This document shows, piece by piece, positions 8,789 to 15,701 of a stretch of 23,440 bases of DNA (within the stretch, counting starts at the first letter, position 1; each line of letters opens with the position of its first letter). This stretch comes from Acrasis kona. Its lineage: Eukaryota; Heterolobosea; Eutetramitea; Acrasida; Acrasidae. The notes beneath the pieces are model-generated. The model had not been told where the DNA came from. It ran no database searches and saw only the letters and a program-made list of their open reading frames with translations. The position numbers and the translations under genes are program-made. The stretch spans positions 1 to 23,440 of the forward strand of contig JAOPGA020001215.1 in the NCBI GenBank assembly GCA_026419775.2. Direction: 5' to 3'.

Positions 8789-9620
8789 ACCACTTCAACA
8801 AAAAAATTTGAGTTGAGTTATTTTAAAAATAGATTACTCGAAATTCAATGAAGAAAGATCTTGTTCACATACACAATCGTACAGAATCAATGTTTATCAA
8901 TACGAAGCAATCAACACAAAAACAAACAAGTTCACACTCAAGTACTGACCAACCCAGCTGAGTACCAAAAAGAAGTGCATATACCGACTTTAGTTGAAAA
9001 AACATATTTAATATTAAGATTTAACTCTTAATCACTCCACACATTTATTTGGCTCTGGGTTGACCGAAATTGACCTTAGAAAACACATTAAAATACGCTG
9101 GGGCATGGGTGCACAAGTGACTTTTCAACATCTTTTTTTCAATTTTTATCGTTTATATCAATTGTATGCATCGATATAAGACTCAAAATTTTTGGGACCG
9201 AAGAAGAGTTAAGGATTATGTTATTAAATTGGACTACTGCAGGGAGAGTGATATTTCCAGTGCCGATTTCCGCACACATTGGGTAATACAACGCATTATT
9301 GAAAATTACCATGTCCCTGATATTTATCCTGTTTGATTAAATAAGGTTCTTATTGTATTCCTACAAACAGAAACAATTCTTACTGTGGTGTTCCCACCGC
9401 ACAAATTTCTACAATAGTTTATTTGATAGGAGTTTAAAACAGACCAACAGGCTTTGATTCATCAAATTAAGGTCACCGCCCCCCTCTGGAAATATTTAGA
9501 CTATAAAACGGTTTCAAGTCCTACTCCGGATCGTAAAAGTCACACCTTAAAATGAAGTTTGACAGGTAACTATTTATAACTGAAAAAATGTACATATAAG
9601 ACAACTTTAAAAAGATTCAA
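8789..9620. other. Upstream region of the PAS-RGS receptor gene with leader intron and uORF
   Basis: About 830 bp, mostly AT-rich. It holds one possible small ORF (9166-9336, listed separately). A TATA-like CTATAAAACGG lies at 9501. A likely 35-nt leader intron runs from 9566 to 9600 (GTAACT...ATATAAG). Before it is ATG AAG TTT GAC AG, which after splicing reads a 7-codon upstream ORF ending in TAA at 9608-9610, eleven bases before the main ATG. Confidence 0.45.
9166..9336 (+). CDS. Possible small ORF, 56 residues
   Basis: The frame opens at 9166 (MHRYKTQNFWDRRRVKDYV) and closes with TGA at 9334-9336. The composition is balanced (many Arg, Asp, Tyr, Ile; ends NYHVPDIYPV), unlike the AT-rich noise around it, so it may be real or a remnant exon. 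No motif is recognised. A second short frame starts at 9105 and overlaps it. Weak evidence. Confidence 0.25.
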   Translation: MHRYKTQNFWDRRRVKDYVIKLDYCRESDISSADFRTHWVIQRIIENYHVPDIYPV

Positions 9621-11852
9621 ATGAGAATGGGTGAGATAAAGGACCAGTCATCGCGTACACCCTCTGTTGATCCAGTACTCTATGCCTCCCCAACGAGTTG
9701 TACATCGGTTCAATTAGAGTCATCATTCGTAATTCCATCATCTAGCAGAAAGAACACAAGTAAAAGAGAAGGCAAAAGTACAAAGACTACATCCACAGAG
9801 GAGACCTCAAATAAACGTTCAAAGTTGGAAAATACAAAAGTGTTACAGTTCGAATGGTATGATTTGGTCATTATCATCATTTCAATCGCAACATTACTCA
9901 TAGCCACCGGTATTTCCGTAGCATTGTACTTTACATTACAACAACAACAAATCTTGCAACTAAAATCACAATTTCAAGCCCAAACAAATTTCCAGAAAGA
10001 TTTAGTGCAGTCCAACGTGAACAAATGTGTACAGTTGACATTAACATTGGCAAGTTTCTTCAAGTATCGAACCAATGCAGTAAATGTCTATTCGGACTAT
10101 TTACCATTCATTAACGAATCCTCATTACTATCTAATGGAGCTAATCAAATCGTTTACGTTTCAATCGTACAACAATCACAAAAAGAGAGCTACATACAAC
10201 AAGTCCGCCAGAGAGGTCGGGACTATACCAACTTTTTTATTTCCGGAAGAACCAGTACAAATGACATTATAACAAACATAACGGCACCAATTTACTATGT
10301 AGAGGACATGATCTATCCAATGACTTTCTCTTCGAATCTTGGAATGGATGTGACTCAGAGACCGACTGATAACTCGCATCTTTATAGAGCGTTACAAACT
10401 GGTAGAGTGTCTGTTTCTACTGCTTACACTCTGGCGTCTACTAATACATCTGGTATTGTAATGTGTTACCCGATTGTCAACTATACAACTGGTGAGTACC
10501 AGGGATTGTCGTGGGTTGCGAATACGTTGAGTGGTATGATTGGAAGTGCAATGGGTGCTGATTTTTTAATAAATACTGCTGTGGTGACTCTTGTTGATAC
10601 TTATCACAATGTGTCACCTTTTATGTACTCTTCTTTGTCTTCTCCTTCTCAACTTGCTTATTTACCTCGCCAAGTAAATGAATTGAGCGACCTTACTGGT
10701 GATGATCATTTGAATATTGTGTTTAATGCTCCGTATACTTTGCAATACTCACTCTCTATTGCCGATCGTAATTTTTCACTGTATTTTACTCCCACTCGAT
10801 CATTTATTGATTCCATTTCGAGTATTGAAAAAATTGTTTGTGCAGTGATTCCTTTTGTTGTTTGGATCTTGGTTGTCCTGTTCGTTGTAATGGTCTTGAC
10901 AAGGCTCAAAAATCAAAACAGACTGTTACGTTCTGAAAAGGAACGGTTGGTGATATTGGGATCATCTAGAGCTAACTTATCCGATCTATTAAATAGAATG
11001 TCTGCTCAGGAGAGAAAAACAAGAAGTACTCTTGATAGCATTCCAGACTACGTCATGTCCATCAATCAAAGTGGTCGCATCATCCAAACAAATGCAACAT
11101 TCGACAGAGTGATTGGTTACACTGCTACGGAGATGGAAAAGGGTGCATTCGTAGGTCAAATTTTGTCCGAACTTCCTTTTAGATTCTACGAAACAGATAA
11201 TAGACAAGTAGAAACGTTTTTGGTGACACGTTATGACAAACGAATTAGAGTGATGGTCACAATTGTTGATTTGTTGCAAAGTCCTAATATCTTATCTTCC
11301 TCTCCTAAACATATTAAAAGTATTGAACTAGTTGAAGACGATGAAAACGAGTCCTTTTTAATAGTCGCCAGACCTCTAGACAATGTTGCCACAGACGCTA
11401 TTCTCGCAAAGCATTTGACTTTCAAAGAATGTCAAGTTGATGGTGTCAGAAGGGATTCTTTGATTTTTGAATTTAAACAAAAATTTAAGAACAATGTTGA
11501 ATTCAGAAGAGCAATAAGAAGATTTGCAAAGGGAGAGAGAAACGAAGAGTTGGTGGAGTTTTTGGAAGCTGTTCTCAAGTACAGAACCCTAATAACAGTT
11601 GAGAAGAGGATGGATAAACAAAGGAAGATTTATAATAAATATTTTGAAAATGATGCGCCCAAGTTGTTAAATCTAGACCATGCTCTGCGCACTCAGTACG
11701 CTCTCAAAGTACAAAAGAGCATAGGAGATGTTGATTTGTTTGATGATGCTGAGACACATGTAGAGGAAACAGTTGTAACTGGTTCATACCAACGCTTTCT
11801 ACAGTCATGTGAAGGCCATCCATGGAGGGAGGAATTGCAATCGGGCTCTTAA
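9621..11852 (+). CDS. Two-TM sensor receptor with PAS and RGS domains
   Basis: 743-residue intronless protein. Residues 1-78 are a Ser/Thr/Lys-rich cytosolic start. TM1 is at about 80-105 (LVIIIISIATLLIATGISVALYF). An extracellular region of about 290 residues follows, with several N-x-S/T sites and the general look of a periplasmic-type (Cache-like) sensor. TM2 is at about 404-427 (AVIPFVVWILVVLFVVMVL), then a short basic and coiled linker. A PAS domain at about 467-580 begins STLDSIPDYVMSINQSGRIIQTN and includes GYTATEMEKG. An RGS-like domain occupies about 621-735 (FKNNVEFRRAIRRFAKGERNEELVEFLEAVLKY, then RKIYNKYF). The layout suggests an extracellular or internal ligand signal tuning G-protein deactivation. 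Heterolobosean genomes are known for PAS and RGS expansions. Two Met codons (1 and 3) are possible starts. No kinase or cyclase domain is present. Confidence 0.8.
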   Translation: MRMGEIKDQSSRTPSVDPVLYASPTSCTSVQLESSFVIPSSSRKNTSKREGKSTKTTSTEETSNKRSKLENTKVLQFEWYDLVIIIISIATLLIATGISVALYFTLQQQQILQLKSQFQAQTNFQKDLVQSNVNKCVQLTLTLASFFKYRTNAVNVYSDYLPFINESSLLSNGANQIVYVSIVQQSQKESYIQQVRQRGRDYTNFFISGRTSTNDIITNITAPIYYVEDMIYPMTFSSNLGMDVTQRPTDNSHLYRALQTGRVSVSTAYTLASTNTSGIVMCYPIVNYTTGEYQGLSWVANTLSGMIGSAMGADFLINTAVVTLVDTYHNVSPFMYSSLSSPSQLAYLPRQVNELSDLTGDDHLNIVFNAPYTLQYSLSIADRNFSLYFTPTRSFIDSISSIEKIVCAVIPFVVWILVVLFVVMVLTRLKNQNRLLRSEKERLVILGSSRANLSDLLNRMSAQERKTRSTLDSIPDYVMSINQSGRIIQTNATFDRVIGYTATEMEKGAFVGQILSELPFRFYETDNRQVETFLVTRYDKRIRVMVTIVDLLQSPNILSSSPKHIKSIELVEDDENESFLIVARPLDNVATDAILAKHLTFKECQVDGVRRDSLIFEFKQKFKNNVEFRRAIRRFAKGERNEELVEFLEAVLKYRTLITVEKRMDKQRKIYNKYFENDAPKLLNLDHALRTQYALKVQKSIGDVDLFDDAETHVEETVVTGSYQRFLQSCEGHPWREELQSGS

Positions 11853-12091: not shown

Positions 12092-12206
12092 CCTTCCGTC
12101 CCACTGTTGAACCTTCCGACCCATGATGAATCCTCCCATACACTATGGAATCCTCCCATGCAATATTGAATCCTCCCATACTATTTATAGTTTAACGTCA
12201 ACATAC
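12092..12206 (+). repeat. Left arm of a long inverted repeat
   Basis: About 115 bp, nearly identical to the reverse complement of 13055-13209. The order is CCTTCCGTCCCACTGTTGAA, then three AATCCTCCCAT motifs, then CTATTTATAGTTTAACG and ACATAC. Weaker similarity continues outward to about 12076 (AAGCAAGTACA against AAGCAGTACA). It also continues inward: the arm is followed by ATGTCAGTGGA, resembling ATGACAGTGGA at the start of the enclosed gene. Confidence 0.9.
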
Positions 12207-12346: not shown

Positions 12347-13047
12347 TTATTGGAGGATGTTCATCAGGTCTCCTTCGATGTTCCCACTGTTGCAATCCTC
12401 TTCAAAATAATTGTTGTCGTCGCTTGCAGAAGGTGATGCACCTCCAAATTGAACATCATTTTCCACATCTGGAGCAGGGTCGCTGAGTACCTGCATTCTA
12501 TCCAAAAGACGTAACAAAGGTGATCTTAAGGTAACTCCAACTTTACCTTCGGCCCATCCCTTCTTGCCNTTGTCGTACTGGTACAAGTGTTTTCCGGTAG
12601 AACGTATTCCAGTACAAATGGTTGTTGAGGTCCTTTTTGAATGCTTAATAGCAAGCACAGTTTCTTCAAGTTTACTTAGGAAAGACGTAATTAATGCCTT
12701 GGGTGTGTTCTCAATCACTTGCCGGTTGGCAATCTGAAACTGTATCGAAAGAAGTGGGTCATCAATGTCTGTCACTTCTTTGTTCACATCTGTATATAAG
12801 ATTACAAGTCGGGCAGATGTAATTACAGAATCAGCACTGTTGTCCTTTTCAACCGCGTCAAAGTGTTCTTGTTGTGGTTGAGGTGTTCCTTTCTCTTCCT
12901 TCCTCGCTTTGCGTGCTTTCTTGCTCCATGACTTATCAACTCTTCCAGGCCCAGGAACAACAAATTCATCGTCTACGTCATTTTGTTCCGGTTGTTCATC
13001 TTCTACGCCCAATCAATGACAGTCTCCTTGGACCAATCCACTGTCAT
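12347..13047 (-). CDS. Unknown protein of about 233 residues inside the inverted repeat, one-base frame break near its start
   Basis: The main frame (13012-12347, minus) lacks an ATG and is preceded by an in-frame TGA. An ATG at 13047 opens MTVDWSKETVIDWA and stops at TAG 13005-13003. Adding one G to the GGG at 13010-13008 would join them as ETVIDWGVEDEQPE. A one-base error or mutation is therefore likely. The protein has an acidic N-terminus (residues 14-35), a Lys/Arg-rich segment (SWSKKARKARKEEKG), a folded-looking core (SARLVILYTDV...SIQFQIANRQVIENTPKALI) and an acidic C-terminus (ASDDNNYFEEDCNSGNIEGDL). One N at 12569 leaves a Lys/Asn ambiguity. I do not recognise the family. It has no transposase-like DDE pattern that I can see. 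Its promoter, with TATTTATAG, sits in the right repeat arm just before the ATG. Confidence 0.65.
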
Positions 13048-13054
13048 CTTTGGC

Positions 13055-13209
13055 GTATGTTAACGTTAAACTATAAATAGTATGGGAGGATTCAATATTG
13101 CATGGGAGGATTATTATGTCATCGGAGATTTCAATAGCGCATGGGAGGATTCCATAGTGCATGGGAGGATTCATCATGGGTCGGAAGGTTCAACAGTGGG
13201 ACGGAAAGG
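13055..13209 (-). repeat. Right arm of the long inverted repeat, promoter-proximal copy
   Basis: Reverse-complement match to 12092-12206, with an extra unit of about 39 bp. On the plus strand it carries four ATGGGAGGATT motifs spaced about 22 bp apart, with one degenerate copy around 13119 (ATCGGAGATTT). On the minus strand it ends in TATTTATAG, TTTAACGTTAA and the ATG of the enclosed gene, so this arm is also the gene's upstream region. Confidence 0.9.
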
Positions 13210-13293: not shown

Positions 13294-15701
13294 ATGCCGT
13301 ATTCATCAACAGAGCCAAAAATAAGCGTACGTCATAATTTACTAAAAGTTTCTAAACATTTAGTGTGTAAGTAGAATACAACAGGGCATGTCAACTAACA
13401 AAATGCTTCATTTCACATGTCATTACATTTATAGGGAGTAAGTAACCAATAAGCAACAACGAGCACTAACACTGTGTTATTATAGGATGTAAGTAACCAA
13501 TAAGCAACAACAAGCACTAACACTGTGTTATTATAGAAAGTAAGTAACCAATAAGCAACAACGAGCACTAACACTGTGTTATTATAGGGAGTAAGTAACC
13601 AATAAGCAACAACGAGCACTAACACTGTGTTTTTATAGTATGTAAGTAACAAATAACATGCAATCATCGCTAACATAAATCTCTTTAACTGTAGTGGGTG
13701 AAATTTTTTGTGTTGACAATAATTTGACATTTGTAGCAAGTAAGTTTTATCTACTGATAATATTTTACTTTTTAGTGTAATGAATGTTTTCAAAAAGAAC
13801 GCGAGCAACAGCAACGCGAGCAACAGGAACGTGAGCGACAACAACGCGAACAAGCGAAAAAAGATTTTGAAAACCAACTCACCTTTTCTGACTTGATGTG
13901 CTTGACTCTTGTGAGATTGAACGATGACCGAACCAAGGCCAGAGCCATTCAGACCAACATTGCCAAAGTCGAGAAGAATTTGGAGGAGCTTCAAAAAGCT
14001 AAAGCACAACTCAAAGAGCACATTCAAGGTTTGAATGTCGGTCAGCAACCCGATCAACAAATCATCGATCAGAAAAATGTTGCCGAGAAAAATCACCAAG
14101 TGGTCGTGAATGAATTGTCCAATGCCCTTGACAGCCGTCCCATCATCGACCACCAACAATTAGAACAAATCACCGCCAGTCTATTTGAGTTCAAGAGAGA
14201 TTATCCAGAGAGCCGTCTGGTTCAGGCACGTCAACATCTAGTTGATGAGTACCAAGAACAACTGAAGAAGGAGAAGGAAAGCATCAAGCGTTATGAACAA
14301 GCCAAGCAAAAGGTCATTTCTTTGAGACATGAATTGAGAGCGGCCGAAATTGCATTGGCTTCGATCGATCTCGAAATTGAAAAACACGAACTCAAGGGCA
14401 GAACTCCATCCGAATCCATCAAGAAGCAAGCCATCAAGAAGAATGAAATCGACAAGATTACTCGATTAGTCAAAGTCGAAGAAGAAGAACTTTTTGCAGC
14501 GGGCCAACAAGAACACTTACCCGAGGAGCTGAAACACAATGCAAGATCCGTCGCCAATGTTCGCAATCAGCCACGCGTTCAAAGGCAGGAGTCAAACATG
14601 ATTGGGGATTACAAGATCATTGAAAAATTACAGCATGGAGCTCAAGCTAAGGTTTACTTGTGTGAAAACGCCAACCGAGATCGCGTCGTTGTCAAGGCCT
14701 ATACCGTTGTTGTTGCGAGCGACATTCAAGTGGGAATGAAGGAAGTAAGTGTGACCGCATTGACGCTAACCATTTTGTAGTGCATCACTGTCCAATCCAT
14801 CCAGCATCAAAATGTGATTACCATCTTGGATTACTTTACGGAACACACCTCCACCTTTCAAAGATTCTGTCTTGTNGCCCCCCATTATCAAGGAGGCGAC
14901 ATGGACGCATTACTATCAAGAGCGAGACTGCAAAACCAAAACATCCCCGCACCCGTATGTACTTTTGATTCGACGTTCATCATTGTTTGTAGGTCGTTTT
15001 GCGCATCGCTCATCAATTAGCATCTGGCTTGGAAGTGATCCATGCCAAAGGGATTATCCATCGTGACATTAAACCCAAAAACATTTACCTCACNCCGGAG
15101 GGAGAATCTCTAGTGATTGGAGACTTTGGCCTCGCAAAAAGCAGCAACAACAAGATGAGCATTGCTGGAGAAGAAGATTACATGAGCTTCGAAATGAAAT
15201 CCCAAAAACCGTATTCTGGCCAAACAGACATGTGGTCCTTCGGATGTGTCTTGTATGAATTAATGAGCCTCAAACACAAGAACATGTCCAACGATTATCT
15301 CGAAGCCATTGCCGACGAAAGGCTGTCCGAGTTCAGAAGTGAATTGAAACAAGATATGAACGTGAGTACTACATCATGATTTTGCCTGACCCGTTTAGAT
15401 GAGTGGCATGTATCCTCAACCCTTGATTGAATTGGTCATCAAGTTGTTGCAGAGAAGAGATGTGGACAGACCGACCGCATCTCAAATCGTGCAGATGAGA
15501 GATTTGTTTGGAGGCGTTGAAGTTGTTCGAGCAGATGAACAACAAGAGTGTGTGATTTGCATGGATGCAGCAAAGAGTCATGCTTGCTCTCCATGTGGCC
15601 ATAAAGTTGTATGTGAGGAATGTGCGGAGGGGGTGCGTGAGAGAGGTGTGTGTCCCATCTGCAGAGCAGAAGTAATCCATTGTATTCGCATTTTCGAATA
15701 A
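13294..15701 (+). CDS. Protein kinase with C-terminal RING finger, 13 exons including eight single-codon micro-exons
   Basis: The model is exon 13294-13326 ([11 protein letters not shown]), micro-exons at 13364, 13435, 13486, 13537, 13588, 13639, 13695 and 13737 (3 nt each, CGDKGYWQ), then 13776-14744, 14781-14954, 14993-15361 and 15399-15701. The total is 1872 nt, 623 residues, and every intron is phase 0. The region after the micro-exons starts CNECFQKE, a possible Cys-based zinc site with the micro-exon Cys12. A Gln/Glu/Arg-rich coiled coil follows (about 25-290). The kinase domain runs about 293-570: a poorly conserved Gly loop ([10 protein letters not shown]), Lys at about 325 (VVVKAY), HRDIKPKN at 423-430, DFG 444-446 and DMWSFGC. 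The APE position reads MSFEM, lacking the usual Pro. The C3HC4 RING starts at Cys574 and ends CPICR. The product is probably a kinase coupled to E3 ubiquitin ligase activity. Two N bases (14876, 15094) fall in silent third positions. Confidence 0.85.
13435..13638 (+). repeat. Four 51-bp tandem units, each one codon plus a 48-nt intron
   Basis: The units start at 13435, 13486, 13537 and 13588. Each has a triplet (GGA, GAT, AAA, GGA) followed by a 48-nt segment that begins GTAAGTAACC, contains CACTAAC about 20 nt from its end and finishes TTATAG. The segments differ at only about two positions (an A at 13511 in unit 2, a T at 13632 in unit 4). Donor, branch and acceptor signals are present in every copy, and an in-frame TAA within each would stop translation if it were retained. 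The unit after 13641 begins with a related GTAAGTAACAAATAA and then diverges. Confidence 0.95.

Follow-up and report, generated by a model that had tools for sequence, protein, structure and literature searches.

In the amoeba Acrasis kona, a gene for a kinase-RING protein probably opens with a run of exons that are each one codon long. The gene lies on the forward strand of the window, by which we mean the whole stretch of DNA analysed (23,440 nucleotides (nt), contig JAOPGA020001215.1, labelled G000:C614), and consists of a short exon 1, eight triplets between nine introns, and four long exons that carry a kinase domain (PF00069) and a RING finger (PF13920). On the evidence of sequence, we put at about three in four the probability that the array is the N-terminus of this protein, encoded as a run of one-codon exons, spliced serially by intron definition, and grown by duplication of a 51-nt unit. 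The broader statement, that throughout the family the fast-evolving N-terminus is split into single-codon exons, from 8 to at least 23 of them, that are all spliced in serially, with codon plus intron as the unit of duplication, is likely too, and we hold it with less assurance.

The array in the window

Exon 1 (13294..13326, 33 nt) holds the start codon and ends in phase 0; its start and the donor that follows it are the same in a paralogue, C237, described below. The introns of the array are 37, 68, 48, 48, 48, 48, 53, 39, and 36 nt long in order, and each runs from GT to AG. Intron 1 (13327..13363, GTACGT...TTTAG) is 86% identical to its counterpart in C237 and leads to TGT (Cys, 13364..13366), which sits between AG and GTAAGT and is the same codon in C237, followed by intron 2 (13367..13434, 90% identical to intron 2 of C237, with a 1-nt indel). 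The next five triplets, each again framed by AG and GT, are GGA (Gly, 13435..13437), GAT (Asp, 13486..13488), AAA (Lys, 13537..13539), GGA (Gly, 13588..13590), and TAT (Tyr, 13639..13641), parted by introns 3 to 6 (13438..13485, 13489..13536, 13540..13587, and 13591..13638), which are copies of one 48-nt intron as judged from the repeat and from the column comparison given below. Intron 7 (13642..13694) is like the repeat intron at its start and diverged beyond that. TGG (Trp, 13695..13697), intron 8 (13698..13736, GTGAAA...TTGTAG), CAA (Gln, 13737..13739), and intron 9 (13740..13775) then lead to the first long exon at 13776. The original prediction had named eight triplets of this kind, each as AG-NNN-GT and all in phase 0, with nine GT/AG introns and an open frame behind them, and the sequence of 13294-13776 agrees with it throughout. 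Phase 0 holds for all 12 introns of the gene model. Joined, the triplets read CGDKGYWQ, followed by CNEC, and they make up 8 of the 623 codons of the spliced reading.

The TAG acceptor of intron 9 is itself an in-frame stop directly 5' of the long exon, and because the open frame is immediately preceded by it, any reading of the 5' part of that exon has to come in through a splice. From 13776, the frame continues without a stop in all four paralogues for the 30 to 44 codons that precede the published start Met, with which it is in frame.

The window has 8 instances of AG-NNN-GTAAGT, of which 7 fall in the array stretch and six are consecutive; 500 dinucleotide shuffles of the window gave a mean of 0.31, a maximum of 3, and no run longer than 1. 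AG and GTAAGT set apart by any distance of 0-12 nt other than 3 are found nowhere in the window. The array contains a 51-nt tandem repeat, made up of the four near-identical 48-nt introns plus codons, and since these four introns are repeat copies, the splice sites of the window are not independent of each other. Independent support, as far as sequence goes, is that of the paralogues, of the flanking introns outside the repeat, and of which columns vary. Assembly of near-identical repeats could also affect the number of units counted in the window.

Paralogous arrays

A search of the 37.35-Mb assembly (1,021 contigs) with the long exon finds seven matching places including the window, and three of the others are close: C757, C237, and C849. 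C757 has 12 triplets, TGT GGA AAA TTT GAA GGA TGT GGA AGA TTT TGG CAA, with the partial joined reading CGKFEGCGRFWQ-CDEC; its contig ends inside the array, so that the 5' part of the gene is cut off and the count is at least 12. C237 (L045, G000:C237:7000-13500) has exon 1 and 23 triplets, TGT GGG GGA TTT TGT ATT GGA TTT CAT TGT GGA GAA TAT TAT GAA GAA TGT ATT GAA CAT TTT TGG CAA, joined as CGGFCIGFHCGEYYEECIEHFWQ-CDEC. Two units of its array (at about 10023-11002) are 52 and 49 nt long rather than 51, with the change in the intron and not in the triplet, and the 52-nt unit ends in AAG and not TAG. With 24 array introns and the next one, it would exceed the maximum of 21 introns per gene given in the published genome description (PMC11589745). 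C849 (L046, G000:C849:6000-12500) is damaged, with only TGG and CAA kept and one stop in the long exon; inspection by eye upstream of those two triplets found no array units, and its divergence from C237 at nonsynonymous sites (dN 0.028) is near that at synonymous sites (dS 0.042).

When triplets are located by the pattern AG-NNN-GTRA[GA], successive sites are 41-71 nt apart, with no gap. The spacing is exactly 3 nt at 43 of 43 links in the arrays of the window, C757, and C237, with AG before and GT after each triplet. Between triplets, the intron is 48 nt long in 30 of 40 intervals, and the other ten are 38-68 nt.

Two exact-letter scans of the genome made without the full sequence of the repeat had matches only in the C614, C757, and C237 genes; the first gave 29 matches with 5 in a reversed control and the second 26 with 0 in the control, and diverged copies could escape both. 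Pairs of 3-nt exons with GTATGT donors had 0 matches in the genome (1 in the reversed control), as did pairs of 6-nt exons with GTAAGT donors (2 in the reversed control). Among more distant kinase relatives, C394 and C996 have no AG-NNN-GTAAG in the stretches examined, and C263 has one on each strand. Within the exact patterns scanned (other donors and sizes were not searched), the arrays appear confined to one gene family.

A repeat of 51 nt might also encode a 17-residue repeat protein on the opposite strand. There one frame stays open for 248 codons across the window array, and in the C237 array two frames have open stretches of up to 187 and 127 codons. Since a period of 51 nt trivially keeps any stop-free unit open, such lengths are to be expected. 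The 52- and 49-nt units of C237 shift the frame, and across the arrays there are at least 16 stops in each of the three frames in C237 and at least 4 in each in C757. With its frame broken in both paralogues, this candidate was rejected and is given next to no probability.

Variation in triplets and introns

A comparison by columns covered the 30 units whose intron has 48 nt and left out the ten intervals of 38-68 nt. Mean pairwise difference is 0.63 in the triplet columns versus 0.083 in the intron columns, and the ratio of the two is 27 in the window, 10 in C757, and 7 in C237. Two intron columns (0.58 and 0.57) match the variability of the third triplet column (0.55). A tree built only from the introns calls for 12, 10, and 11 changes in the triplet columns, where intron columns take a mean of 0.79 and a maximum of 6. 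Within the introns, change avoids the splice signals: none of the 10 columns of GTAAGT, the branch T and A, and AG varies, versus 20 of 38 other intron columns (nominal Fisher p = 0.0028, the 10 columns having been picked after the array was seen). A wider set with all five branch columns and TAG has 2 of 14 variable columns versus 18 of 34 (p = 0.023), and the donor and AG only have 0 of 8 versus 20 of 40 (p = 0.014). The branch motif occurs in four variants, all YTRAY.

GTAAGT is the donor after 37 of 40 triplets. Ten U1 candidates were found in the genome, all below the Rfam cut-off, and because the two that were read begin AAACTTACCTG, GTAAGT pairs fully with them over the intron positions. 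Such full pairing would compensate for the poor pairing of most triplets with U1.

None of the 43 triplets is a stop codon, where column shuffles give a mean of 7.3 and never 0 in 20,000 trials; with TGG and CAA removed, there are 0 stops in 37 triplets with 5.4 expected (p = 0.0002). Of the triplets, 20 end in T and 0 in C, and the same codon families in the long exon end in C in 28 of 61 cases. C accounts for 5 of the 129 triplet bases in C614, C757, and C237 and never stands at the second or third position; the 13 triplet types include no codon for Ser, Thr, Pro, Ala, Val, Leu, Asn, or Met.

The 3-nt spacing also holds outside the repeat. TGT has introns 1 and 2 on its two sides and CAA has introns 8 and 9, none of them a 48-nt repeat copy, and the spacing is unchanged; TGG lies between a diverged intron and an unlike one, again at exactly 3 nt. 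TGG and CAA are identical in all four copies (window, C757, C237, and C849).

Introners are dispersed copies of one intron that occur in many unrelated genes. It is conceivable that mobile copies of this kind were inserted here between the codons of an older continuous exon, and the figure most suggestive of it is that units whose introns differ at no more than 1 of 48 positions share the upstream codon in just 21% of 34 pairs. The number of codons differs among the paralogues (8, at least 12, and 23), which insertion alone would leave unchanged, and blocks of codon plus intron recur within C237 (TGT ATT and GGA TTT, with matching introns). The repeat intron is found only in the C614, C757, and C237 genes by exact patterns, by which diverged copies could be missed, and the copies lack the equal flanking triplets that a 3-bp target duplication would leave. 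We regard insertion as quite improbable, and less likely than either of the two alternatives taken up with the intron lengths below.

Published annotation and intron lengths

The best protein match to the window gene is AKO1_007921, which is the published model of the C237 paralogue. Predicted introns in A. kona span 9-95 bp, and low-complexity and interspersed repeats were masked ahead of gene prediction, according to the part of the genome description consulted (PMC11589745). Repeat masking may be the reason that the array went unmodelled.

These data bear on whether the array could be a minisatellite inside a single intron (13327-13775), with the triplets never included and the AG...GT frames merely looking like splice sites that have been copied along. 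Such an intron would be compatible with the existence of the 51-nt tandem repeat, with a reading frame that is kept when all triplets are omitted, and with a published C237 model that ignores the stretch, the repeats having been masked before prediction. It would also be 449 nt long, far above the published range. Drift in noncoding DNA predicts neither triplet columns that are 7 to 27 times more variable than the intron columns nor splice signals that are near-constant, and the lack of a stop in 43 triplets and the placement of several triplets between non-repeat introns likewise speak for coding exons. We take the single intron to be unlikely.

Equally unlikely, in our judgment, is that the triplets are optional exons, of which varied subsets would be included to give isoforms that differ by single amino acids, as in schistosome micro-exon genes (MEGs). 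All of them are 3 nt long and in phase 0, so that any subset stays in frame, and splice sites this alike would allow many pairings. An intron that skips TGG or CAA would be 95 or 78 nt long, within the published range, so that these two may be optional as far as length goes, whereas skipping any one of the other six window triplets needs 99-119 nt, above the 95-bp maximum, so that pairing of nearest neighbors should dominate at those six.

Inclusion of the whole run of one-codon exons has its own difficulties. AKO1_007921 starts at MRLTLVRL, inside the long exon and downstream of the array, and omits the array, and the 9-95 bp range is derived from predicted genes. Among ordinary intron candidates, 8 of 14 are 35-42 nt long, shorter than the 48-nt array introns; the others are 51-130 nt, and several of them overlap others or look false. 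The column tests on the array overstate independence, the units being related by duplication. On a tree from all 51 columns, the triplet columns take 5, 8, and 3 changes versus an average of 0.96 and never more than 6 in intron columns, so that the contrast shrinks. Counted over the 13 distinct triplet types only, the absence of stops is not significant (p = 0.099). Exon 1, used below as evidence for selection, is short (33 nt) and compared in two genes. Residues 1-75 of the C237 reading, used as a query, had no match at E = 10 or better among 86 candidates. Each of these points weighs against the reading we prefer. Taken with them, the paralogous arrays, the concentration of change in the triplets, the near-constant splice signals, the absence of stops, and the published intron range still lend support to the consecutive one-codon exons that the original prediction had called.

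Probable selection on the N-terminus

In exon 1, the 11 differences between the window and C237 all fall on nonsynonymous sites (26 in number), with 0 on the 7 synonymous sites. For the long exon, dN is 0.058 and dS 0.206 in this pair, and dN is 0.041-0.070 and dS 0.156-0.308 among the window, C757, and C237. Judged from the exon 1, intron, and dN/dS comparisons, change is more rapid in exon 1 and in the triplets than in their introns, and the remainder of the long exon is constrained. The simplest account would be diversifying selection on the N-terminus, to be read with caution given the shortness of exon 1 and the relatedness of the array units.

The N-terminus is rich in Cys, Gly, and aromatic residues in two paralogues. 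A Cys-rich zinc site had been suggested for the joined reading. The window copy has only three cysteines in this part, and the zinc site is left as a faint hint: the C757 reading matches the CHY zinc finger (zf-CHY, PF05495) at 18 bits, below the cut-off of 31.3, the window and C237 readings have no match to it at E = 10, and no zinc-finger family in Pfam scores above its cut-off for the N-terminus. Most plausibly, the N-terminus would serve in recognition, as a variable binding surface that directs the kinase-RING part.

Proposed splicing and growth of the array

An exon of 3 nt can hardly be defined across itself. We propose splicing by intron definition, in which the spliceosome matches each donor (GTAAGT in most cases) to the closest acceptor 3' of it, 36-68 nt away, and removes the introns serially. 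Each step would add 3 nt to a 5' exon that lengthens or, in the opposite order of removal, to the 3' exon. Because each removal enlarges the neighboring exon, U1 and the acceptor factors would at no point have to flank a free 3-nt exon simultaneously. The call for intron definition or a special order of splicing made in the original prediction fits the argument given for a 1-nt exon in plant APC11, for which intron definition with successive removal is proposed as the likely route in the portion of the source consulted (PMC4674806). The array, with its short introns, its strong donors, and a single acceptor close to each, suits that route as well.

The array would have grown by duplication of a 51-nt unit of one codon and one 48-nt intron, each adding one amino acid to the protein. 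Growth of this kind would account for the different numbers in the paralogues and for the recurring codon and intron blocks in C237. Selection for varied amino acids would then have driven fast change in the triplet codons, with the introns remaining similar.

The remainder of the gene and its neighbors

The first long exon (13776..14744, CNECFQKE...VGMKE) encodes a Gln/Glu-rich stretch and the start of the kinase and is open in the window, C757, and C237. It is followed, still on the forward strand, by an ordinary intron of 36 nt (14745..14780), a kinase exon (14781..14954), an ordinary intron of 38 nt (14955..14992), and a second kinase exon (14993..15361), which by itself matches Pkinase PF00069 (E = 3.2e-26, 92.7 bits, cut-off 31.7). 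After a last ordinary intron of 37 nt (15362..15398), the final exon (15399..15701) encodes the end of the kinase, a C3HC4 RING finger (PF13920, E = 1.6e-12, 47.5 bits, cut-off 27), and the stop. There are N bases in the kinase exons at 14876 and 15094, where any base gives the same amino acid, and a third N in the window at 12569.

Upstream of the gene, the window has two minisatellites (13082-13193 and 12128-12181) that flank an antisense open frame (12347-13012); their 20-nt unit resembles GGGAGGATT or its complement. Farther upstream, a long open frame at 9600-11852 has CHASE and RGS domains, as in a receptor-like signalling protein.

Comparison with known systems

The literature search found no run of consecutive one-codon exons among the matches listed; it covered openly licensed papers, so that a precedent in print is possible. 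If the reading is right, the array is an extreme case of splicing and an unusual route to the evolution of a variable protein region. An intron-defining spliceosome would work through more than 20 introns parted by single codons, and the array would be a natural repetitive substrate on which to measure in what order introns are removed and how little exon U1 and the acceptor factors need. Coding triplets that outpace their introns would point to a signalling protein of this social amoeba being selected for variety, with a protein region that grows and diversifies by single residues while the splice signals stay fixed. The case also suggests that annotation can miss such exons when repeats are masked.

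Micro-exons of MEGs are 6-36 nt long and form most of the coding region; the one-codon exons of the window gene are 8 of 623 codons and do not. By sequence, all 43 triplets are of microexon size (internal, no longer than about 30 nt, with spliceosomal splice sites). In Schistosoma, the MEGs have many very small symmetric exons per gene and high dN/dS, as the consulted part of the source has it (PMC4350168). The A. kona exons resemble them in being small and symmetric (3 nt, phase 0), and differ in being uniformly 3 nt, mostly between near-identical introns, and only at the N-terminus of a kinase-RING gene.

Repeated near-identical spliceosomal introns are known as introners and as repeated stwintrons (PMC8469720, PMC9024468). 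Introners are dispersed and stwintrons nested, one intron of a stwintron interrupting a splice signal of the other, whereas the A. kona introns are complete, in tandem, and in one gene family, and no 48-nt unit lacks a donor, a branch motif, or an acceptor. A stepwise removal with a donor beside the newly used acceptor is shared between the proposed route and recursive splicing at zero-nucleotide ratchet points (PMC8605326). Ratchet points juxtapose acceptor and donor and divide long introns, whereas each A. kona step would add one codon and the introns are 36-68 nt; there are three bases at every junction, and AG-GTAAGT at a distance of 0 is absent from the window.

The closest cases in exon size are a 1-nt exon in plant APC11 and VPS55 and in Fusarium CYP621A and a 3-bp exon in Drosophila homothorax (PMC4674806, PMC8831610, PMC12940212, PMC7392893), which indicate that exons of 1-3 nt can be spliced. 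From what the consulted portions report, these have one tiny exon per gene, unlike the A. kona arrays of 8 to 23. RPS24 has three consecutive microexons of 3, 18, and 22 bp that are alternatively spliced (PMC11162997), and is like A. kona in having consecutive microexons and the 3-nt size; its three are of unlike sizes, with no repeat array described in the part consulted, whereas those of A. kona are uniform and in a repeat array. Exons of 1 and 3 nt are thus already published as single cases, and a consecutive run would extend microexon gene structure. If transcripts confirm it, up to 23 consecutive 3-nt exons will stand beside the single exons of 1-3 nt and the RPS24 triple.

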